Virus record (IMG/VR): IMGVR_UViG_3300033571_024846
Location: 1 to 32,282 of that record
Strand: one strand, 5' to 3'
DNA: 32,282 bases
From: a virus
How positions within the stretch are numbered: the stretch's first letter is position 1; every line of letters begins with the position of its first letter. Positions 9,880 to 22,639 of this stretch are shown one piece after another. A model generated the notes under the pieces. The model had not been told where the DNA came from. It worked only from the letters and a program-made list of their open reading frames with translations, and made no database searches. Position numbers and translations under genes: made by a program.

Positions 9880-9900
9880 GGCGGTGGACGCCCACAAATG

Positions 9901-9934
9901 CAAAACGCCTGGCAGCTGGTCTAGCTGCCAGGCG
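9901..9934 (-). terminator. Rho-independent terminator between replication and late operons
   Basis: Perfect 12-bp arms CGCCTGGCAGCT (9906-9917) and AGCTGCCAGGCG (9923-9934) have a 5-base loop. The minus-strand stem is followed by TTTTG (9905-9901). It lies after the 211-aa gene and before the late genes. It could be the end of the early transcript or, as with lambda tR', a terminator that a late regulator must overcome. Confidence 0.85.
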
Positions 9935-9952
9935 CAATGCGCTAACGATGGA

Positions 9953-10588
9953 TCACCTTGTCAATGATTCGCCGACATTCGTCAATCCCCTTCCGGTGAC
10001 CTTCCACCGGGTCAGGGCAAAGCCCGGCATGACATCGAGGAAGGCGAGAAACATCTCATAGAACGCCACCCATTCGGCTTCACGGCGATCAGCGATGGCC
10101 TGATCGGTGCCCTCATAATCGACCACGCAATACTCCGTCACCACGCGATCTTTCCGGTGCGCCCGGTGCCGCTGCACCAGCACATTGCCATTGCGGTCGA
10201 GCCTGGGCACCACCCTCACGCGCGAAACGCTGATGACGGGCGGCAGCTGCTGGCGCTTCTCGGCATGCGCCATCACGGAGAACGCTTGGCGAGGATCATG
10301 GGAGAACCATTCTTCAAGTTTTGCGTGGATGAGGCGCGCATCGTCATGGGGCTCATACCAGCCATTGATCAACCCGCCACTGACCCGCTCACCACGCCCG
10401 AGCCCACTCATGGCCAGCCCGGGCGTGGGGAAATGCGCGGCCTCCACTGAAGAGGCCGCCCGCACGATTTCATCCGCATAGGTCCACACCAGAACAGCCC
10501 AGGCCGTCGTTTCCCTCTTAAAACCCTCCACGGGAGGGACATTCTTTCTTACGGGAGGCAGACGGGAGGATAACGGGAGGGTGAACAT
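9953..10588 (-). CDS. Unknown protein in late-regulator (Q-like) position
   Basis: The product has 211 residues. No family is recognised. There are no Cys pairs, membrane segments or nucleotide-binding motif. A segment AWAVLVWTYADEIVRAAS is followed by a helical ARLIHAKLEEWFSHDPRQAFSVMAHAEKR stretch and a basic patch RVRVVPRLDRNGNVLVQRHRAHRKDRVV. The second half is acidic/aromatic (YCVVDYEGTD; WVAFYEMFLAFLDVMPGF). It is last in the replication operon, directly before a strong terminator and the late genes, which is where lambda keeps Q. A role as antiterminator or late activator is an inference from position only. Its first codons are made from the CCTCCCGT repeats. Confidence 0.7.
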   Translation of the reverse strand: MFTLPLSSRLPPVRKNVPPVEGFKRETTAWAVLVWTYADEIVRAASSVEAAHFPTPGLAMSGLGRGERVSGGLINGWYEPHDDARLIHAKLEEWFSHDPRQAFSVMAHAEKRQQLPPVISVSRVRVVPRLDRNGNVLVQRHRAHRKDRVVTEYCVVDYEGTDQAIADRREAEWVAFYEMFLAFLDVMPGFALTRWKVTGRGLTNVGESLTR

Positions 10589-10794: not shown

Positions 10795-12450
10795 CTATTT
10801 TTCGCCCTCGCCGTCACCATATTCCTGCCCGGCGAAGACATCGGTGGTTTTCGTCAGCAGGATGTGACGGTAGAACATGCCGCTGTTCTTGATACGCTGC
10901 ACGCCATGGTCCTGCAGGGCGCGCGAAAAAGTCTTGGTGCCCCACGGCTTCTCGCCATAAGCCTTCGCCCAGGCAACATACAGGCGATAGATATCTGCCC
11001 CGCCGGTGCGCACCTCATCCTGCGGCCTGTCAACAGGCGGCGGGTCGACGCGAATGGTGCATTCCTTCAGGAACCGCCCAATCGGGTCACTGTCGTCACG
11101 ATAATCCGCCGTGGCCGCAAGCACCTCATCCGGCGGAGAAAGCCCGCTGTCGAGGTAATCCCTTAAGCCATCGAGAAGCCGGTTGAGGATGCCCGAAGCC
11201 TCGCGCTTCAACTTCTCCGGCAAGGCCGTGTCTCGCTCTTCGGCCGGCACCATCACCGTCCATGGCACAAGCAGGATACGCGCCCAGATGCCTTCATCCG
11301 TGCCGCGGACCTCAGGACGGTAGTTGCCTTGCATCGTCAGCTTGAAGCTCGGCCTGAACTCGAAGAAATCGCGGTTGAGGTGGCGCGCACGGAGCGGTTC
11401 TCCGCCGGTCACGAGCTTCACGAGATTCTCGGCCAGCTTTGCACCCTTCTCAGGCTCCGAGGTGCGCAGGCAGCGCACACCCGGCAGCGAGGCGATATCG
11501 GGCGAGGCCTCTCCGCCGCGGCGTGAGCGGCCACTGTCCAGGAAGCTTTCGATCGGGATGGTCTGACTGTAATCGCCCAGCACATGCGCCCAAGCATCGA
11601 CCAGCGTCGACTTGCCGTTGCGGCCCGTGCCATACCAAAAGGCCAGGCGCGCCACCTGAAGCGCCGTGAGCGATAACCCGCCCCAGGCATGCAAGTGCCG
11701 CCGCATCTTGTCATCAGGCTGAACGCGCGCCAGGAATCCATCATAGACTGGCGCTCCAGCCTCAGGGTCATATTCGACCGGAGCCAGCTTTGTCATCCGG
11801 TCTTCGCGCCGGTGCTTGTGAAAGGTGACATAGTCACCTTCCTTCTTTTTCTCAAAGCGCAGCGTGCCGTTCAACACGTTGAAGGCCATTGGATCGGCGT
11901 CGAAATCGCTGCTCTTGGCGGAGAGATAGGATTGAGCCAGCCGCGCCACAGCCATGATATGAGCCGAACTCTGGGATGCAAGGCACCAGCCGCGTAACTT
12001 GTCGGACACAAAAACCCGCTTGACCGGGTCAATCACCACGTCATCGCGCGTGCCAGCCAGCGCATCAGCCTCCTGCAAGATCGCGCGGATGGTCTCGTGC
12101 ACCGCCCGCGCCAGAATCGCATCGGCCTCGGAGGCGTTCCAGCGGCGGCCATCCCAGGCCAGCCAGCCCCATTCGGAAACAAACAGGAAGTCTTTCCCGT
12201 GCCGCTTCACAAAGCGCTCAGCATTGCCCAGATCCGTGCGCGGCAGGCTGGCGCAGGCGCGGTCTATGGACCACTCGAAACCGCCGCCCCCCGCACCCCC
12301 GCCATGCGCAGCTGAGGCCGCCTCATCCCGCACGGGAGGCATCGCACCACCAGCCTCACCAGAGGGTGCGGGAGGGGCGCCCGCGGCCAGGGTCTCGGCA
12401 TCGTCGATGCTCTTGACGATGCGCAGATGTGGCTCCCGCTGGTCGCTCAT
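10795..12450 (-). CDS. DNA primase/helicase, D5/P4-type (SF3 helicase)
   Basis: The product has 551 residues from ATG 12450, which overlaps the primase stop as ATGA. The longer frame to 12498 would run back into that gene. The N-terminal 60 residues are Gly/Ala/Pro-rich and disordered. Residues about 70-250 resemble the D5_N domain (VSEWGWLAWDGRRW; AFNVLNGTLRFEKK). Walker A GTGRNGKST is at 274-282; further SF3 motifs are RCLRTSEPEKGAKL, FKLTMQGNYRPEVRG and GIWARILLVPW with the Arg finger. The protein unwinds DNA for phage replication together with the Toprim primase upstream. The iteron cluster follows its stop. Confidence 0.92.
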   Translation of the reverse strand: MSDQREPHLRIVKSIDDAETLAAGAPPAPSGEAGGAMPPVRDEAASAAHGGGAGGGGFEWSIDRACASLPRTDLGNAERFVKRHGKDFLFVSEWGWLAWDGRRWNASEADAILARAVHETIRAILQEADALAGTRDDVVIDPVKRVFVSDKLRGWCLASQSSAHIMAVARLAQSYLSAKSSDFDADPMAFNVLNGTLRFEKKKEGDYVTFHKHRREDRMTKLAPVEYDPEAGAPVYDGFLARVQPDDKMRRHLHAWGGLSLTALQVARLAFWYGTGRNGKSTLVDAWAHVLGDYSQTIPIESFLDSGRSRRGGEASPDIASLPGVRCLRTSEPEKGAKLAENLVKLVTGGEPLRARHLNRDFFEFRPSFKLTMQGNYRPEVRGTDEGIWARILLVPWTVMVPAEERDTALPEKLKREASGILNRLLDGLRDYLDSGLSPPDEVLAATADYRDDSDPIGRFLKECTIRVDPPPVDRPQDEVRTGGADIYRLYVAWAKAYGEKPWGTKTFSRALQDHGVQRIKNSGMFYRHILLTKTTDVFAGQEYGDGEGEK

Positions 12451-13649
12451 GCAGCCCCCCGGAGCATGTCGTTGAAATCGGATCCCGCATCGGCCCATGC
12501 CGCGCGGATAGCGCGTCCCGGCCGGTGCCAGCGGGCCGCAAAGCGCAGCAGCACGTTGCGCGTGGTGAAATGGTCGCTGTCGCCATCGCCCAGCAGCAGG
12601 ATCTCATCGACGCCCGCAGGCGGGGCGATCACCGCATGGTCATTGCGGTCCGGGTCAGGCCCCGGCACACGCTGCGCCCGCGTGCGGCCTCGCGCATCAG
12701 TCAGGGTCAGCTTCGGGTGGGCAACGCTGCCGGCACTCTTGCCGCCGAGATTGTGAAGGTTCACGCTGGACCAGTACAACGTCCAGTCCGAACGTCCCGC
12801 AGCCAGTTCCGCCGCCTGCACCGAAAGCACGGTTTCGATGCCCTCCCCCACCACGAAGCGCCGCGGCCCAACCGCCGTGCCGCCGAGATGAATGTGCCCG
12901 CCCTTTTGCGATCCCCTCACCTTCTTGGCGTCAAGAATCTCGCCCGTCTCCGGGTGCATGATCTCCGCCTTGCCGGAGCGCGTGGCCAGCCGCTGATCGA
13001 TCCAGGTGATGTGACAGCCGATGAAGCGTTCATCATGCCCCTGGATAGCCGCCACCATGGCGGGCCCGGAATAGATGGCGCGCCACTCACCGCCGATGTG
13101 GTGCCAATAGGGCAGCACTGCCGCCGCGCGCAGCTTGGCGCCCGCCGGTGCTGCCACGCCCCGGTGGCGCAGATAGGCTTCCGCGATTGAGCCCTCGAGG
13201 CGGCTCGCCTCCTTCCAGATCTTGCGCGCCCGCGCGATCTCGCGAGAGCGGAAATCATTCTCCTCCGCCGCCAGGCGCTGGGCTTCCGCAGCGCGCGCTG
13301 CCTCCAGCTCCGCCACCCGCCTTGCCCGCGCCTGGCGCTCTTCCTCGGACACGCTGCGGCCGGGCGGCGGCCTGCCGGTGAGCAGCTCCACCGCCTCCAG
13401 GAAGGGGCAGGACTGCACATGGCGCGCCAGCGCAATGGCGTCGCCGCCCTCCGCACTCTTGCGGCACCAGAAGATGTTCTTGCGGATGTTGAGAGAGAAG
13501 CGGTCGGTGCCGCCGCAGCCAGGGCAAGGCCCCACAAAGCGCGTCTTGCGCGAGATGGCGTGATGCGGCGCAACGAGGTCCAGCGCCTTGCCGATCGGCA
13601 TGCGGCGCGCCTCCTCGATCCACTCATCAAAAGCGGGATCCCGGTTCAC
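12447..13649 (-). CDS. Toprim-type DNA primase with zinc-binding N-terminus
   Basis: The product has 400 residues from GTG 13649, which overlaps the upstream stop as GTGA. The N-terminal part has the CHC2-like zinc region GPCPGCGGTDRFSLNIRKN followed by IFWCRKSAEGGDAIALA. A charged helix follows. The C-terminal Toprim domain shows the VGEGIETVLS motif (glutamates, around 265) and the ILLLGDGDSDH motif (metal-binding aspartates, around 350). Such proteins make RNA primers on phage DNA. Its stop overlaps the helicase start, so the two would be made together, like the split form of a P4-alpha-type primase-helicase. Confidence 0.9.
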   Translation of the reverse strand: MNRDPAFDEWIEEARRMPIGKALDLVAPHHAISRKTRFVGPCPGCGGTDRFSLNIRKNIFWCRKSAEGGDAIALARHVQSCPFLEAVELLTGRPPPGRSVSEEERQARARRVAELEAARAAEAQRLAAEENDFRSREIARARKIWKEASRLEGSIAEAYLRHRGVAAPAGAKLRAAAVLPYWHHIGGEWRAIYSGPAMVAAIQGHDERFIGCHITWIDQRLATRSGKAEIMHPETGEILDAKKVRGSQKGGHIHLGGTAVGPRRFVVGEGIETVLSVQAAELAAGRSDWTLYWSSVNLHNLGGKSAGSVAHPKLTLTDARGRTRAQRVPGPDPDRNDHAVIAPPAGVDEILLLGDGDSDHFTTRNVLLRFAARWHRPGRAIRAAWADAGSDFNDMLRGAA

Positions 13650-13921
13650 AGAACATCCCCTGAGCGGAAAGCCATCATCAGCAGCAGCTCGGCGCGGGAA
13701 TGGGCCAACGCGCCCTTCATGAGCGGCACACGCTGCTGCTCTTCAGTCAGCACATAAATGCCGAACTGGCGTCCCCGCTCATAGGACAGCGATTCCTCAT
13801 CCCTCCAACGGCAGTCGATACAATGCTCCTTAGCGCGCCAGATCTCTTCATAGCCTTGCCGGAACAGCGGGCACGAGATGATTTCGGCGTAGCCTGCGCG
13901 GCGCGTCGCGGCCTGAGCCAT
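13646..13921 (-). CDS. Small Cys-containing protein of replication operon
   Basis: The product has 91 residues from ATG 13921 (MAQAATRRAGYAEIISCPLF), overlapping the previous stop as TGATG. The open frame reaches further up to 14245, but that part is out-of-frame reading of neighbours. It has a CIDCRWRDEE element and SYERGRQFGIYVL, with three Cys that could bind one metal ion together with His. A similar ERGRxF motif is seen in small phage proteins of unknown role. No function can be assigned. It is translationally coupled on both sides. Confidence 0.7.
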   Translation of the reverse strand: MAQAATRRAGYAEIISCPLFRQGYEEIWRAKEHCIDCRWRDEESLSYERGRQFGIYVLTEEQQRVPLMKGALAHSRAELLLMMAFRSGDVL

Positions 13922-14133
13922 CAGAACAGCCTTCCCTGCGCAGCAGGTGGAGAGGACGGGCGCGGGCGGGAGACGGCACCCGGCCCATCCTCTCCTGGTG
14001 CTGGGGCGGCACCATTCCAGATCATGTCGCGGTGGCCCTTGCAGGCCCAGCGCATCACCCCGCGCGAAGGCAGCCCCATGCCGAACAGTGGGTAACCAGG
14101 GCAGCCGGGCTTGATGCATGATTTCTCGATCAT
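13921..14133 (-). CDS. Small putative zinc-binding protein
   Basis: The product has 70 residues from ATG 14133, overlapping the methyltransferase stop as ATGA. The N-terminal half has CIKPGCPGYPLFGMG and later ACKGH, giving a CxxxxC...CxxH set that could hold a zinc ion. The last 25 residues are Pro/Ser/Ala-rich and probably disordered. A longer frame to 14193 exists but would lie inside the upstream gene. Function unknown; proteins of this kind in phage replication operons often bind nucleic acid. Confidence 0.65.
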   Translation of the reverse strand: MIEKSCIKPGCPGYPLFGMGLPSRGVMRWACKGHRDMIWNGAAPAPGEDGPGAVSRPRPSSPPAAQGRLF

Positions 14134-14723
14134 GCGTGCTGTGTCCAAAGCACGCGATTGATGACTGTGGGCCCAAGATGGCGCCGATCCCAAACAAACC
14201 AGGCAAAGTCCATTCGGGCTGAGGCTTTCGGGCCTTTCCAGCCATCCCGGTGCATCATCGGCAACCGCTTGCTGAACACGTGCACTCTGGCAAGCGCGCC
14301 AAAATCCATAATGTCGCCGCGCGTCGTGCCGGTGATGAAAGCAAGGCGCAGAAGCATCGCGACCCAGGGCGAAAGCTCAAGGGCGCGGCGCACGAAGGCC
14401 ACGGCATGCATGTAAGGAGGATTCGTCACGATGGCACGGCCGCCCGCCAGACCGTCGGCATCCGGTGACAGGAAATCAATGCCATCCGCATCCTGCAACG
14501 GCGAGCGGTAATCGACAAGATCAGTCGCCAGAACATCATGACGCCGCTCTTTCAGGACGCGCACGATGGCCCCAGGGCCGCACGCCGGCTCCCAGACGCG
14601 CCGTGGCACGCGTTCGACAGCCAGCAAAGCAAGAACAGCCTCGCGCGGCGTCTCATAAAGATCATGCCCCCGTTCCGAATATCGGTGCCGTGTGTTGCCG
14701 TCATGGTTGCCCCTTAGAACCAT
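14130..14723 (-). CDS. DNA adenine methyltransferase-like protein (NPPY motif)
   Basis: The product has 197 residues from ATG 14723, overlapping the ParB-like stop as TGATG. The S-adenosylmethionine motif is EPACGPGAIV (about 45-53), with the ATDLVDY acidic strand end (about 66-72). The catalytic motif TNPPY is at 100-104, typical of N6-adenine (or N4-cytosine) methylation. The aromatic stretch DFAWFVWDRRH near the end is typical of phage-encoded members. No separate target-recognition domain is visible, so specificity cannot be predicted. No matching restriction enzyme is nearby. It may protect phage DNA or set methylation marks read by a regulator such as the GcrA-like protein in the same operon. 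Confidence 0.85.
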   Translation of the reverse strand: MVLRGNHDGNTRHRYSERGHDLYETPREAVLALLAVERVPRRVWEPACGPGAIVRVLKERRHDVLATDLVDYRSPLQDADGIDFLSPDADGLAGGRAIVTNPPYMHAVAFVRRALELSPWVAMLLRLAFITGTTRGDIMDFGALARVHVFSKRLPMMHRDGWKGPKASARMDFAWFVWDRRHLGPTVINRVLWTQHA

Positions 14724-15544
14724 CAAACACCCCTCAAGGCGGCTTCGATCTCCGCCAGCTTGCAGCCCAACGCGGACTGGATGGCAAAGCGCGTGTGCCC
14801 GCGCTTCTTCAGCTCGCGGATACGCTCCGCCAGCAGCTGGGCATTTGCCGCCTGCTCCGGCTGCTTGCGCTTGTCTTGAAGAGACCGCCACTCGCCAATG
14901 GCGATGTCGATGGCTGCTGATTTCCAGAAGCCGGGCTGGTCTGCGCCGGGAAGAGTGCGGCCGTATCGAAGCGCCGCCGTCACGTCTTTCGCGCCAAACC
15001 GCATGATGCTTTTTCGCAGCGTGCCCAGCGCCATGGTCTCGAACGGCTTGATGACGTTTCTCGGCTTTGGATAAACAAGCGGCACCAGTCCGGCATCGGC
15101 ACAGACTTTGTCGAGTTCGAGAGCCCATTCTGTCTTCGCTGCGCGCGCCGCCTTGAACAGCTGCAAGATCGTCACGGGCGTCACGTCCCCATTCACGGCA
15201 GCGAAGATGGCAGGTTGCTCCAGCGCCGTGGCATCCACGATCGCGCAGGGCACCTTTTTGTAGCCGCGCATCAAAGCGGCTGTTGCCCTGTGCTGCCCAT
15301 CGATAATGGTGTGAAGGCCGCCGCCGTCCGGCACGCGGGCCACCAGCAAAGGCGCAAAGCGCGCCCAGGAGAACTCATTGCAGATCCTTGTGATCGTGGC
15401 CCGCCCCCTGCTGGAAATGTCACGCTGGAAACTGTCATCGATGCGCAACTGTGTGACAAAAAGCCAGTCCAGAACCGGCGGCTTGCCGGGCTCCTTTGCA
15501 CACGCGATGTTAAGCGGAAGAGCGGCCAGCGGACGCAAGCTCAT
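14723..15544 (-). CDS. ParB/Srx-like domain protein
   Basis: The product has 273 residues. The ParB N-terminal nuclease-like core is seen in FVTQLRIDDSFQRDIS, then PLLVARVPDGGGLHTIIDGQHRATAALMRGYKKVPCAIVD; the IDGQHR motif (81-86) corresponds to ParB GxRR-type motifs that bind nucleotide. The rest is helical, with a basic C-terminal helix-turn-helix-like end (KRGHTRFAIQSALGCKLAEIEAALRG). Its role in this phage is unknown; such proteins may regulate transcription or replication. It overlaps its neighbours on both sides (ATGA upstream, TGATG downstream). Confidence 0.78.
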   Translation of the reverse strand: MSLRPLAALPLNIACAKEPGKPPVLDWLFVTQLRIDDSFQRDISSRGRATITRICNEFSWARFAPLLVARVPDGGGLHTIIDGQHRATAALMRGYKKVPCAIVDATALEQPAIFAAVNGDVTPVTILQLFKAARAAKTEWALELDKVCADAGLVPLVYPKPRNVIKPFETMALGTLRKSIMRFGAKDVTAALRYGRTLPGADQPGFWKSAAIDIAIGEWRSLQDKRKQPEQAANAQLLAERIRELKKRGHTRFAIQSALGCKLAEIEAALRGV

Positions 15545-15738
15545 GGCAGCGACTCCATCCGGTTCAGGGCATCCTTCACACCCTGCGTCAACTGCCCCAG
15601 CAGCATCGCGGCGATCTTCGGTGTCAGGACCATGTCGAACTTCTGATCGCCGCGCGCCGTCGTCACCGTCAGCATCAAGCCGTCATCGGGGTGCTCATGT
15701 ACATAGGCCAGCCTCAGCTTCTCGTGCACGGTGGGCAT
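15541..15738 (-). CDS. Small conserved-looking phage protein, unknown
   Basis: The product has 65 residues from ATG 15738 (MPTVHEKLRLAYVHEHPDDGLMLTVTTARGDQKFDMVLTPKIAAMLLGQLTQGVKDAL). Two beta strands with a turn and a helix are suggested. The upstream 40 codons of the open frame belong to the GcrA-like gene in another frame. The LTPxxAxxLxxxLxxG pattern occurs in short proteins of phage replication operons. No function is assigned. Confidence 0.7.
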   Translation of the reverse strand: MPTVHEKLRLAYVHEHPDDGLMLTVTTARGDQKFDMVLTPKIAAMLLGQLTQGVKDALNRMESLP

Positions 15739-16541
15739 CAGCGGCGCGCCCCAGTGATATGCAAAGGCTTCTGCGGCCGGACAGGTCTCACAGTCACGTA
15801 GCAGCGTGCGTGGTGGTCTGCGCAATAGCTTTGCCCGTCGCCGGCAGCCGCACCGCAATAGCGCAAGGATCCATCAAGCTGGTCGATGGGAAAACGGCAC
15901 GCGCCCCACCTTGGAAGCTCAGCCAGAGACAATCGCGAGCGCTGTTCCATGAACCCCTCGCAGAACACCGCAGTGACTTTCTCTGCGCTATCACCCTTGA
16001 CGATCGTGGTGAGCCGCCAGGACGGCTGGCGCACACCGTTGGCAGGCTTTACGCCCTGGCGGCGGCGCTCCCATCGCGCCTGATAGAGCGAGATGCCGAG
16101 CGTATCGGCAACCTCCCGGTCGCAGCGCCCGGCCTTCACAAGTTCTGCCAGTTGATCAGCAACGGCAAGGGCCTGGCGCACATGGGCATTCGCCCCCCAG
16201 CCCTTAATTCTCCGCACATACCGCACATCGTCTGGCTTGATGCCGATCTCGTCGGCGATTTCACGGTCGGTCCGGCCGCCATCCAGCATGGTCCTGATCG
16301 CAGGCACATGCGCAAGGCCCGGAATGCTTCTGCCGCGCGCTGCGGGCTTGTAGTCAGGCGATTTCTGAAATGCACGCGGCCCTTCGATAACCCCCCTGTC
16401 GCGTAGCCGCATGAGGCGGCCGAGAACCGCGTTGCGGGTCATGCCGGGAAAAAGGCTTGCTATTTCTCTCGCGCTCTTGCCTTCAGCCGTGAGCGACACG
16501 ATCCGGTCGTCGGCTTCCTGCGTCCAGGAGAAATGCTTCAT
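15738..16541 (-). CDS. GcrA-like transcription regulator with two added helix-turn-helix segments
   Basis: The product has 267 residues from ATG 16541 (ATGA overlap with the CII-like gene). N-terminal FSWTQEADDRIVSLTAEGKSAREIASLF with TRNAVLGRLMRL (5-48) is the GcrA helix-turn-helix. The C-terminus has GACRFPIDQLDGSLRYCG then QSYCADHH (Cys215, Cys229, Cys240, His243/244), the GcrA knuckle. Between them lie two further helix-turn-helix-like units, REIADEIGIKPDDVRYVRR (93-111) and REVADTLGISLYQARWERR (142-160). In Caulobacter, GcrA (173 residues) helps sigma-70 RNA polymerase at promoters with methylated GANTC. This version is about 90 residues longer, which suggests extended DNA recognition. 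It may control late or replication genes or affect the host cell cycle. Confidence 0.85.
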   Translation of the reverse strand: MKHFSWTQEADDRIVSLTAEGKSAREIASLFPGMTRNAVLGRLMRLRDRGVIEGPRAFQKSPDYKPAARGRSIPGLAHVPAIRTMLDGGRTDREIADEIGIKPDDVRYVRRIKGWGANAHVRQALAVADQLAELVKAGRCDREVADTLGISLYQARWERRRQGVKPANGVRQPSWRLTTIVKGDSAEKVTAVFCEGFMEQRSRLSLAELPRWGACRFPIDQLDGSLRYCGAAAGDGQSYCADHHARCYVTVRPVRPQKPLHITGARR

Positions 16542-17023
16542 GGGCGCACCCCGTTGCTGCGGGCCACGGCGCCCGCAGCCGGGTCGAGCAGATCGGAACA
16601 AAGCCGCGTCAACGCGGCGATTGCTTCTCTGGCCTCACGGCGGATATCGCGGCGCTCGGCAGCGGACAACTGGCCATCGGCCATGGCGGTCAGGATGCCG
16701 CATTCGACATCGCGCACCTCGGTGACGATGCGCGACAGGTGCAGCAGCGGGGAGGCCTCGAAAGCTCCCTTGATGACCGCATCGACGGAATAGCCCATTC
16801 GATCGGCGAGGGCGGCGGTCACAATGGGCTGCCCGCATTCGGCTTCAAGCAGCGCCACATGGTCAATGCGCGGCCAGCGGTCAATGTGATGCGGCGCCAT
16901 CGCCTCGGAGATATGCGAGGCCTGCCCTCCGGTCACTTCGGCGGCGCGCTTCGGCCCGCCGCAGGCAATGACCAAGTCGCGGTAGAAGGCCTTGAGTTCA
17001 ATGGGTACTTTTGCGTGTGTCAT
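16538..17023 (-). CDS. Putative phage regulatory protein (CII-like)
   Basis: The product has 161 residues. The N-terminal half (YRDLVIACGGPKRAAEVTG, then QASHISEAMAPHHIDRWPRIDHVALLEAECGQPIVTAALADRMGY) has the layout of the phage CII/CP76 regulator family: a helix-turn-helix, then a residue set predicting host-chromosome type recognition. The C-terminal half is a long charged helix (GQLSAAERRDIRREAREAIAALTRLCSDLL). It is the first gene after the terminator that follows Cro, the position of cII in lambda. It may activate repressor or integrase transcription during the lysogeny decision; this is inference. Confidence 0.65.
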   Translation of the reverse strand: MTHAKVPIELKAFYRDLVIACGGPKRAAEVTGGQASHISEAMAPHHIDRWPRIDHVALLEAECGQPIVTAALADRMGYSVDAVIKGAFEASPLLHLSRIVTEVRDVECGILTAMADGQLSAAERRDIRREAREAIAALTRLCSDLLDPAAGAVARSNGVRP

Positions 17024-17214: not shown

Positions 17215-17439
17215 TCACGCAACACTCGGGGCCGAGCCGCCCCCTTCTGCGTCACAACCGACAAAATCATTGGCTGTCACAGCACCTCCAGTGACCTCGG
17301 CAATGCGCGACACAGCCTCTCTGCTGGGCCAGATTTCGCCCCTGCAGATCATCGTGACGTAGGACTGCGACTTGCCGATTCGCGTGGCGAAATCGGAGCG
17401 CCGGATTTGGTGAAGTTCGAGGTACTCGGCCAGTCTCAT
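17215..17439 (-). CDS. Cro-like helix-turn-helix regulator
   Basis: The product has 74 residues from ATG 17439 (MRLAEYLELHQIRRSDFATRIGKSQSYVTMICRGEIWPSREAVSRIAEVTGG). A TTG two codons earlier also lies in frame. The helix-turn-helix is SDFATRIGKSQSYVTMICRG. It is the first gene of the minus-strand operon, divergent from the repressor, the lambda cro arrangement. The predicted -10 (TATCAA, 17451-17446) would put the transcript start at or next to the ATG, so the mRNA may be leaderless. It would bind the operator copies between the two divergent genes. Confidence 0.85.
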   Translation of the reverse strand: MRLAEYLELHQIRRSDFATRIGKSQSYVTMICRGEIWPSREAVSRIAEVTGGAVTANDFVGCDAEGGGSAPSVA

Positions 17440-17481: not shown

Positions 17482-17529
17482 ATTTCAGTGCGGGTGCATG
17501 GACGGCCCCCGAGCCACATGGTGTTGCTT

Positions 17530-17880
17530 ATGGCGATGAAAGCCAATCGTGAACCACCCCCAATGAACGCGCGAAATTATGTCCGCGAATGGCGAGAGTT
17601 TCGCAAGCTCAAGCAGGAAAAGCTTGCCGAGAAGGCTGGCTATTCTGCGGCCACGATTTCGCAGTTGGAAACTGGGAAACAGGGGTATGAAGAGAAGACC
17701 CTGGTTCGCCTGGCTGCGGCCCTTGATTGCGAGCCGAGCGACCTGATCGCCGGACCCCCTGAGCTTGCGCCGCTTGTCAACCAAGTGCGCAACCTGCCTC
17801 CAGACCGCCGGGAGGACGTTATTGACGCCCTGATGCGGCTGCTGGTTGATTTGAAGCGCATCGGCAAGATTGCAGATTGA
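17530..17880 (+). CDS. Phage repressor (short XRE-type, CI role)
   Basis: The product has 116 residues if started at ATG 17530; ATGs at 17518, 17536 and 17563 and a GTG at 17488 share the frame, and none has a strong ribosome site. The helix-turn-helix reads FRKLKQEKLAEKAGYSAATISQLETGKQGYEEKTLVRLAAALDCEPSDLIAGP. After it come only about 40 residues (LVNQVRNLPPDRREDVIDALMRLLVDLKRIGKIAD), a likely dimerisation helix. There is no S24 peptidase domain, so SOS self-cleavage as in lambda CI is not expected. It is divergent from cro across operator array 1 and coupled to a membrane protein by a TTGA overlap. Confidence 0.82.
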   Translation: MAMKANREPPPMNARNYVREWREFRKLKQEKLAEKAGYSAATISQLETGKQGYEEKTLVRLAAALDCEPSDLIAGPPELAPLVNQVRNLPPDRREDVIDALMRLLVDLKRIGKIAD

Positions 17881-20391: not shown

Positions 20392-20739
20392 ATGATCATC
20401 GATATCGTCGGCATGCTGAAATCCGAAAGAGCCGCCGGAGACGAAACCTCCGAACAGACCATCGAGCGCATTGACGCGCACATCCGCGACCTCGCCAGCA
20501 GGTCTGAAAGCATCGCCCTGCTGCTGACCGATCTGGAGGCCGAAAGGGCGGCCATAGACGCCAATGTACGCGACCTTGAGCTGCTTAAGGCCTGGATCAG
20601 GGACAGCGCCACGGCGCGGCGCACCGCCCTGGACGCCATCGTGGGCAGCGAGCGTGAAGACACTCCGCTGACTTTGCCCGGCAAGCCCGCCAGCGCCGCG
20701 CCCCCGGCGGAACCTGCCGGTGAAGCCGCGCAGCCCTGA
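20392..20739 (+). CDS. 115-aa coiled-coil protein, unknown
   Basis: The start at ATG 20392 is chosen because GGGAG lies eight bases upstream; ATG 20386 overlaps the previous stop but is only two bases from that site. Long amphipathic helix (EQTIERIDAHIRDLASRSESIALLLTDLEAERAAIDANVRDLELLKAWIRD) suggests a coiled-coil dimer; the last 30 residues are Pro/Ala-rich. No family is recognised. Confidence 0.65.
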   Translation: MIIDIVGMLKSERAAGDETSEQTIERIDAHIRDLASRSESIALLLTDLEAERAAIDANVRDLELLKAWIRDSATARRTALDAIVGSEREDTPLTLPGKPASAAPPAEPAGEAAQP

Positions 20740-20776
20740 ACCGCATTCCACCCCTCACTCCAGCGGAATCACCCCC

Positions 20777-22639
20777 ATGACACAATCGGCTTACTCACGC
20801 CTCGACTACATTCCATTGAGCGCGATCCACTACAACCCCGCCATCAACGCCCGCCGCGATACAGAGACAGACGTTAGCGAGCTCGCCGCCACAATCGACG
20901 CGCAGAACCTCGGCCAGCCCCTGCTGCTGCGCCCGGCAGGCCGCGACCGCTATGAGCCGGTTGACGGCGGCCGCCGCCTGCGCGCGCTGAAGCTGCTGGC
21001 CGAACAGGGCAAGGTATCGCTCGATCATCCGATCCCGGCCTACATCCGCGAACTTGACGACAAGGAGGCCATGTCGCTTTCGCTGGCGACTGTCATCACG
21101 AGGGTGGACCTTCATCCGGCGGATGAGGCGCTCGACTTCACCGACCTGGTGCAGCAAGGCATGAAGCCAGAAGAAATCGCCGTGCGCTTCGGCATCCCGC
21201 TCCGCCGGGTCAGGCAGCGCCTTGCCATCGGCAGGCTGCCCGAAGAGATCGTGGCGGCGCTCAAGGCCGGCAAGATTGGCCTCGCTGATGCGCAGGCCTT
21301 TACCCTGCTGCACGATTCAGCTCACGCGCTCAAGCTGTTCAGGCAGGGCGTGAAGGAGGAGTGGGCGATCCGGCGGGAATTCAGCAAGAAAAGGATCCCG
21401 GCGGAGACATCGGAAGCAGCCTATGTCGGCCGCGACGCCTATGCCGCCGCCGGCGGCGCCATCGATGAAGATCTTTTTTCGAACAATGTGTGGTTTGCCG
21501 ATGGCAAGCTGCTGTCGAAGCTGTTCCAGCAGAAGCTCAAAGACGATGAGAAGGCATGGCTGGCCGAGGGCTGGAGCTTTGTGGTTATCGACATTGATCC
21601 GAACACCAGAAAGACCAGCAGCTGGCCCAATCTGCAGCCCGAAGGCAAACCCAACCTGACGAAAGAGCAGACGGAGCGTGCCGATGAGCTCAAGGCCGAA
21701 ATCAAGCTGCTGAGACGCAAGGTTCAGGAGGCCGACGATAACGAAAGCTTTGAAGAGGCCGAACAGCAGCTGCAGGCCGCGGAGGACGAGCTCGAGGATC
21801 TGACCGCGAAGCATTTCACGGCGGCGCAGAAGGCGAAGTCCGGCGTCGTGGTGCGGCGAGGCTACGACAATATCCGCGTTGAGTTCGGCGCCATGAAGCC
21901 AGCCGCCGCGAAGAAAGAGGCGAAGGCCTCAAAGCAGAAGGCCCGCGACACGTCAGAGGATCCTTCGCCTGTGCGCAGCATCGAACCCGATGCCGAGGCC
22001 GACTTCACCCAGGCCCTGGCCGTGGAGATGGCCAGGGTGATGACCGATGCCATGCAGCAGGCTATTTCCAAACAGCCGTCAAAGGCGCATCGGCTCGCAG
22101 CTTCGGTGCTGATGATCATGGCAAGTTTCTCCCGCGCCGAAGGCTTTGCGATCGAGGCTCCTCGCAAGGACCGTGCTGTTCAGGGCCCGCTTTGCTTTGA
22201 TGCGGTGCGCGAGGTGGTTGACGAGGCGGACAGCGCCACAGCGCGCGTTTTCACAGCCGCCGAACAGCACCCCGATCTCGACAGGCTTGTCGCCATGAGC
22301 CTTGCCCGGCTCTTTGCCCTTGATCCCCAGTCCATGCAGGAACTGCGCGCGATCATTGACGCCTTTGACCCCGACGTTACAGGCCTATGGCTGCCCGATG
22401 CCGACTTCTATAAGCGCATGCCGCGCGAGAGCCTTGCCGCGGCACTGGCCGAGGCCGCGATCGCAGGCGTCACCCCGTCGAAGAAGAAGAAGGAACTTGT
22501 CGAGATCGCCGTGCGCGAGCTCACCCCCAAGGGCTGGCTGCCGAAGCCCCTGCGCACGCCGAGCTACAAAGGCCCGGGCTCCAACGCCTGGGCCGTTGCC
22601 GCAGGCGCCGCAGCCGCAGGTAAGGAGGAGGCGGCATGA
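20777..22639 (+). CDS. Large ParB-family protein
   Basis: The product has 620 residues from ATG 20777 (GGAA eight bases upstream). ParB N-domain: YIPLSAIHYNPAINARRDTE, then YEPVDGGRRLRALKLLAEQG (nucleotide-binding RR motif, about 59-78) and LATVITRVDLHPADEALDF. A KorB-like helix-turn-helix follows (KPEEIAVRFGIPLRRVRQRLAIGRLPEEIVAALKAGKIGLADAQAFTLL, 130-178). Around 300-350 is a coiled coil (ELKAEIKLLRRKVQEADDN). The rest is unique. ParB proteins bind parS and hydrolyse CTP; no ParA is seen here, so partition is unproven and a regulatory role is possible. It is the second ParB-like protein in the window. Confidence 0.85.
   Translation: MTQSAYSRLDYIPLSAIHYNPAINARRDTETDVSELAATIDAQNLGQPLLLRPAGRDRYEPVDGGRRLRALKLLAEQGKVSLDHPIPAYIRELDDKEAMSLSLATVITRVDLHPADEALDFTDLVQQGMKPEEIAVRFGIPLRRVRQRLAIGRLPEEIVAALKAGKIGLADAQAFTLLHDSAHALKLFRQGVKEEWAIRREFSKKRIPAETSEAAYVGRDAYAAAGGAIDEDLFSNNVWFADGKLLSKLFQQKLKDDEKAWLAEGWSFVVIDIDPNTRKTSSWPNLQPEGKPNLTKEQTERADELKAEIKLLRRKVQEADDNESFEEAEQQLQAAEDELEDLTAKHFTAAQKAKSGVVVRRGYDNIRVEFGAMKPAAAKKEAKASKQKARDTSEDPSPVRSIEPDAEADFTQALAVEMARVMTDAMQQAISKQPSKAHRLAASVLMIMASFSRAEGFAIEAPRKDRAVQGPLCFDAVREVVDEADSATARVFTAAEQHPDLDRLVAMSLARLFALDPQSMQELRAIIDAFDPDVTGLWLPDADFYKRMPRESLAAALAEAAIAGVTPSKKKKELVEIAVRELTPKGWLPKPLRTPSYKGPGSNAWAVAAGAAAAGKEEAA

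Follow-up and report, generated by a model that had tools for sequence, protein, structure and literature searches.

An IMG/VR virus record of 32,282 nucleotides (IMGVR_UViG_3300033571_024846; the whole stretch of DNA analysed here, referred to as the window), which profile searches showed to have the gene content of a temperate phage, carries in one early operon the genes for an NPPY adenine methyltransferase of 197 aa (14130-14723, minus strand) and for an enlarged GcrA-like protein of 267 aa (15738-16541, minus strand). Sequence comparison and structure modelling establish both parts, their operon, the conserved pairing of the two genes and the replacement of the methyltransferase, in a related phage, by a different enzyme of the GANTC family. 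GcrA is known to read methylated GANTC and to bind sigma70 (reviewed in PMC7403470). For the parts themselves, a writer plus a reader of methylation is well supported, and the chances are evenly balanced that the operon encodes the CcrM/GcrA switch of alphaproteobacteria in phage form, by which the phage would express its genes and replicate irrespective of the stage of the host cell cycle.

The two proteins very probably concern the same mark, since homologues of the methyltransferase methylate GANTC, the DNA-binding domain (DBD) of the GcrA-like protein keeps the GcrA recognition helix and the operon is conserved in related phages. Two genes (65 aa and a 273-aa ParB-like protein) lie between the GcrA-like and the methyltransferase gene, and the operon neighbours from the CII-like through the 91-aa gene overlap by 1-4 nt in ATGA or TGATG joints (16541-16538, 15740-15736, 15544-15541, 14725-14721 and 14133-14130). 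Because of these overlapping joints the GcrA-like protein and the methyltransferase very probably share a single mRNA, in agreement with the common operon that a sequence-only reading of the window had proposed; the coordinates, protein sizes, NPPY motif and two extra helix-turn-helix (HTH) segments of the GcrA-like protein given in that reading were likewise correct.

Methyltransferase and its predicted specificity

The methyltransferase (METHYLTRANSFERASE) starts at the ATG at 14723-14721, which overlaps the stop codon of the ParB-like gene; the start at 15128 of the mechanically called open reading frame (ORF) was rejected. Motif I (EPACGPG) lies ahead of NPPY and there is no room for a target-recognition domain. 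The enzyme matched phrog_799 (DNA methyltransferase) at 3.9e-52 and none of the Pfam families, and a fold search assigned it a class I methyltransferase fold, by which DNA and rRNA adenine methylation are not distinguishable. Among its top named relatives in GenBank phages are the enzymes of 16-3 (48%), phi2LM21 (42.6%), PPF1 (41.5%) and phi3LM21 (37.4%). Phi2LM21_p21 and Phi3LM21_p21 have been expressed and protect GANTC from HinfI, as had been shown earlier for PhiLM21_p027 (PMC5537653), and motif I and NPPY are invariant in the alignment of the window enzyme with the GANTC-proven members of the phrog_799 group. Trees built from about 176 members place the window enzyme in a clade with the Phi2 and Phi3 enzymes (support 0.91-0.92); PhiLM21_p027 comes just outside that clade, and the enzymes of gammaproteobacterial and Gram-positive phages stand apart. 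On these comparisons it is highly likely that the window methyltransferase is GANTC-specific.

The phrog_799-type family is very common in Hyphomicrobiales prophages. Similar to the Sinorhizobium phage CcrM mimics (PhiLM21_p027, Phi2LM21_p21 and Phi3LM21_p21), which are homologous NPPY N6-methyladenine (m6A) enzymes encoded just upstream of replication genes, the window enzyme precedes its replication module, with two small genes followed by primase and D5 helicase. The Phi2 and Phi3 enzymes differ by extra N-terminal regions; the ParB-like ORF of the window as a split piece of these longer enzymes was ruled out, as it shows no similarity. CcrM has the same predicted target, m6A in GANTC, but is a beta-class enzyme (PF01555) with a C-terminal DNA-binding domain, to which the window family is unrelated by sequence.

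The enlarged GcrA-like protein

PF07750 was matched by the 267-aa protein with 59.8 bits (cut-off 26.9) in two separated stretches, one of them at residues 147-247. On the NCBIfam GcrA equivalog NF050816 it scored 40 bits against a curated cut-off of 280, and is therefore not an orthologue of cellular GcrA. The AlphaFold2 model consists of three tri-helical units (residues 8-48, 76-112 and 119-161) and a C-terminal small beta/helix sigma-binding fold; the local confidence of the four units is fair to high (block means mostly 74-96), while their arrangement is not interpretable (pTM, the predicted template modelling score, 0.35). Unit 1 corresponds to the GcrA DBD (residues 5-49; 16395-16529, minus strand): Foldseek superposed it on the C. 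crescentus GcrA DBD with methylated DNA (5yiv) at a root-mean-square deviation (rmsd) of 0.8 A over 44 residues and 43% identity, and its recognition helix, TRNAVLGR, is kept from the TRNAVIGK of GcrA. The C-terminal unit corresponds to the sigma70-interacting domain (SID; CRFP...YCG...YC..H, about residues 205-250; 15792-15929, minus strand). It was superposed on the GcrA SID bound to sigma70 domain 2 (5yix_B; prob 0.99, rmsd 2.6 A over 45 residues) and was matched by a home-made SID hidden Markov model (HMM) at 3.4e-14. In all likelihood the window protein binds sigma70; the prospect that it reads methylated GANTC is evenly poised.

The two extra HTH units (residues 76-161; 16059-16316, minus strand), absent from ordinary GcrA, were predicted by the model where the sequence-only reading had called for structure prediction. 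HTH2 (76-112) and HTH3 (119-161) form an internal duplication whose score was reached by 0 of 5000 shuffles. HTH3 is weakly like unit 1 (43/5000 shuffles) and HTH2 is not (637/5000); the two units may derive from the GcrA domain or have been recruited. Cellular GcrA (C. crescentus; PF07750; PDB 5YIV, 5YIX, 7YE1) shares with the window protein the N-terminal HTH that binds m6A-GANTC and the domain that binds sigma70 region 2, but has about 173 aa and an unstructured linker (about 60 aa in C. crescentus) between them. In the window protein the span from DBD to SID is about 150 aa and in the model holds two confident HTH units in place of an unstructured linker, which makes it a family member of altered architecture and no ordinary GcrA. 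Matches of the protein to pentatricopeptide designs in the PDB were discarded as repeat artefacts. A direct search for close relatives, by 8-residue patterns in IMG/VR and by tblastn in GenBank phages, found none, and the closest relative of the window phage was located via its terminase.

Exchange of the predicted writer beside a retained putative reader

The closest relative (contig G496, locus L283) has a terminase 89% identical to that of the window and a syntenic operon, with identities of 73% for the CII-like, 53% for the GcrA-like, 79% for the 65-aa, 62% for the ParB-like, 74% for the 70-aa and 71% for the 91-aa protein, and of 83% each for primase and D5 helicase. Its methyltransferase is only 32% identical to the window enzyme and instead 51% identical over 208 aa to PhiLM21_p027, with which it groups in the tree (support 0.94). 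The nucleotide alignment of the two phages ends at window position 14131 and restarts at 14739, i.e., at the borders of the methyltransferase gene, and thus shows a clean exchange of one gene. By their sequence relationships the exchanged and the incoming enzyme both come from lineages with a GANTC-proven member, and the reader was kept.

Both extra HTH units are present in the L283 GcrA-like protein. Between the two phages, for which synonymous sites are nearly saturated, HTH2 is 77% conserved, followed by the SID (53%), HTH3 (47%) and the DBD (45%). As HTH2 is the best conserved part, the added units look functional and are probably in use; they may equip the protein with its own set of DNA targets and may even carry its main DNA specificity.

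A distant prophage in a bacterial genome (L246) has Cro, CII, GcrA, ParB-like, NPPY methyltransferase, 70-aa, primase and D5 genes in the same order. Its GcrA has 207 aa and no extra HTH, and its methyltransferase is related to the enzyme of the GcrA-bearing phage CcrRogue. In CcrRogue itself, GcrA and a distant relative of the window methyltransferase are encoded about 64 kb apart.

A side observation concerns Caulobacter phage DMCA (PQ480021.1, 41741-44587; host CB15). The genes for its GcrA (DMCA_084) and for an adenine methyltransferase of the beta class (DMCA_087; PF01555, DPPY) share one early operon, ahead of the replicative helicase gene. DMCA_087 is a third, unrelated enzyme type in that operon position, and DMCA possibly a laboratory model.

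Pairing and modularity in other phages

Among IMG/VR contigs selected by the methyltransferase only, 27 of 92 records had a PF07750 match (5/23, 16/50 and 6/19 in the three sets). Where both genes occurred on a contig (24 contigs, duplicates and one weak DBD-only case excluded), the GcrA-like gene lay at most 3 kb from the methyltransferase gene in 20, with 5.0 expected by random placement, and in contigs of at least 40 kb this held for 11 of 15 against 1.5 expected (0 of 20,000 simulations), a result that does not separate pairing from common membership in an early module. Gaps between the two genes went down to 21-75 bp. Furthermore, a search of 185 methyltransferase loci yielded 26 distinct SID-bearing proteins within 6 kb, 23 of them on the same strand and 7 in bacterial genomes; the reversed-ORF control over the same loci gave no match.

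The GcrA parts found near methyltransferases come as DBD with SID, as SID alone, as DBD alone, and as two DBD-like HTHs with SID (a 225-aa frame in L019, and L070); two-HTH forms occur elsewhere in bacterial genomes as well (L228, L230). Proteins with SID only, in frames of 77-101 aa, adjoin the methyltransferase in five loci from phages and prophages (L013:5902-6135, L124:806-1102, L136:4004-4267, L066:4690-4965 and L096:2612-2917). In IMGVR_UViG_3300037479_000047 (L020:4824-5999) a single ORF, situated roughly 2 kb upstream from the gene for a GANTC-type methyltransferase, fuses an HNH_3 endonuclease and an AP2 domain to a complete GcrA (DBD and SID). The protein of the window belongs to a set of several re-built GcrAs. 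Tentatively, a GANTC writer with a modular GcrA-type sigma70 cofactor might form a portable epigenetic transcription module widespread in alphaproteobacterial phages, in which the SID would be recombined with tandem HTHs, an HNH-AP2 domain or none, the self-written mark would rewire the host polymerase, and the writer would be exchangeable as long as the mark is unchanged. Such proteins would present the sigma70-binding domain as a transplantable recruiter of RNA polymerase.

Two further observations were made on the distribution of the genes. Rhodoplanes elegans DSM 11907 has two loci, L046 and L047, on one contig (NZ_NHSK01000074.1), separated by about 63 kb. In each, a GcrA-like gene lies upstream of a GANTC-type methyltransferase at a distance of 1.7 kb, and the match statistics of the two loci are identical, i.e., they are a duplicated or repeated prophage. 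A 44-kb IMG isolate-genome prophage with a related terminase (contig G508; L284:5974-7029, minus strand) has a CII-like followed by a GcrA-like gene and no methyltransferase of the phrog_799-type family, and thus the reader is also found without this writer.

Functional interpretation

Host CcrM is active in only part of the cell cycle. If the operon is a phage version of the CcrM/GcrA switch, the methyltransferase would, after infection or induction, place N6-methyladenine on GANTC at any cell-cycle stage, and the GcrA-like protein, translated from that same message, would bind sigma70 via its C-terminal domain and bring host RNA polymerase to DNA. DNA contact would be made through three HTH units, the GcrA unit reading methylated GANTC and the two added units widening or shifting the range of targets. 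Candidates for these targets are a small number of sites in the phage, promoters of the host, or sites that HTH2 and HTH3 specify. The likely purpose would be to let the phage express its genes and replicate at any stage of the host cell cycle. This explanation is favoured because DBD and SID match solved GcrA structures, three relatives of the methyltransferase are GANTC-specific, L283 swaps the writer within the GANTC family, L246 keeps the gene order, the proximity of the two genes is recurrent and HTH2 is conserved. Moreover, action of GcrA on phage genes has a precedent in Brevundimonas subvibrioides, where a 26-gene prophage-like operon depends on GcrA for its expression (PMC7987155). 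We judge it an even proposition that the two proteins are functionally coupled.

Several observations weigh against a coupled switch. About 70% of the methyltransferase contigs, many of which are fragments, show no GcrA-like gene, and the phages of the experimentally tested enzymes, the Sinorhizobium CcrM mimics, have no GcrA; the writer is therefore useful without a reader. The proximity of the two genes may reflect a shared early module and not joint function. Between the window and L283 the DBD has diverged more than HTH2, so that GANTC may have ceased to be the main target. The sequence-only reading had suggested that the phage uses its own writer and reader for the timing of its genes, and that timing found no backing in the window: its GANTC sites are few and show no excess of -35/-10 promoter-like context, and only 3 of 15 aligned sites are common to the window and L283, a rate like that of other palindromes. 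GANTC is rarer than expected (44 sites against 102.5); this depletion was rejected as a sign of function, being a general trait equally strong in 116 other methyltransferase-bearing loci (0.41-0.51).

Alternatively, the operon may hold two independent early functions, which we consider a real possibility, if a somewhat doubtful one. The methyltransferase would copy the host methylome, for escape from restriction or for host-like replication and repair of phage DNA, and the GcrA-like protein would be a methylation-independent activator whose SID recruits sigma70 polymerase to phage promoters through HTH2 and HTH3. The abundance of phages with the methyltransferase and without GcrA, the better conservation of HTH2, the lack of promoter-like GANTC sites above chance in the window and the phage proteins in which the SID stands by itself or is joined to different DNA-binding parts, among them the HNH-AP2-GcrA fusion, all fit such a division, whereas the recurrent close pairing of the two genes and the retention of GcrA where one GANTC-type enzyme has taken the place of another speak for a connection. 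It is unlikely, in turn, that the pair acts mainly on host promoters, keeping host replication genes switched on by imposing complete GANTC methylation and the S-phase (GcrA) programme. GcrA does activate replication genes in Caulobacter and such a role has been proposed for phiCbK GcrA (PMC3556154), the phage itself has few GANTC sites and the recognition helix is close to that of host GcrA, but the two added HTHs and the diverging DBD suggest targets other than those of the host protein. That the protein is a decoy, competing with host GcrA for sigma70 or GANTC and silencing the host cell-cycle programme, is highly improbable: the SID-only mini-proteins beside the methyltransferase in other phages could only compete, but the window protein keeps all its DNA-binding units under apparent constraint.

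Phage homologues of GcrA (PMC3556154; PMC6630229; Brucella phage Y17, PMC11836647) and phage CcrM mimics (PMC5537653, PMC7139368, PMC6536676) were already known. The former, phiCbK gp222, Atu_ph08 and the Brucella phage Y17 protein, belong like the window protein to the GcrA family in alphaproteobacterial phages, but neither extra HTHs nor an operon partner figure in their descriptions. In the full-text literature searched, where most subscription journals and preprints lie outside coverage, no paper was found on GcrA and a methyltransferase in one conserved phage operon, on writer exchange beside a retained GcrA or on GcrA with added HTH units. Why alphaproteobacterial phages copy the CcrM specificity is a stated open question (PMC7139368; also PMC5537653). 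A phage reader beside the writer would supply both halves of the host cell-cycle methylation switch, an answer to this question that can be tested directly.

Phage setting and further features

The host of the phage is very probably an alphaproteobacterium. Terminase, portal, major head, minor tail, integrase, divergent CI/Cro-type regulators, primase and D5 helicase genes are present. Divergent from the operon lies a CI-like HTH repressor (17488-17880, plus strand; phrog_7241, 3.6e-13). The early operon runs leftward on the minus strand from a Cro-like HTH protein (17215-17439; HTH_3, 3.5e-9) through the CII-like regulator (Phage_CP76; 16538-17023; PF06892, 4.4e-7; phrog_101, 1.6e-16), whose stop overlaps the GcrA start in the ATGA at 16541-16538. 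The GcrA-like gene is followed by that of the 65-aa protein without assigned function (15541-15738), the ParB-like gene (ParB N-domain; 14723-15544; phrog_1033, 1.9e-14; homologue in Paracoccus phage Shpa) and the methyltransferase gene. The conserved operon proteins of 70 aa (13921-14133; homologues in L246 and L283) and 91 aa (13646-13921; homologue in L283) come next, and then, both identified by profile matches, a primase with zinc ribbon, DUF7146 and Toprim (12447-13649) and a D5-like primase/helicase (10795-12450).

At 9900-9990 a TTGACG-N17-GACAAG arrangement covers a GANTC site (9966) that is kept in L283, and is followed by a hairpin with a T-rich stretch. The site, with a fair -35 (TTGACG), was given no weight as a promoter, as it lies at an ORF end upstream of a terminator-like hairpin; the region probably comprises the end of an ORF and a terminator, which separate the packaging genes from the D5 side. 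Between 25500 and 32282 the ORFs tested gave no Pfam match beyond the integrase, and comparison with 397 genomes of one order gave a single short 66% match, by which the host is not established; this part may belong to the phage, as uncharacterised DNA, or to the flanking host sequence. A second, larger ParB-like protein (ParB_N and HTH_ParB; 20720-22639, plus strand) is encoded among the rightward genes before the integrase.

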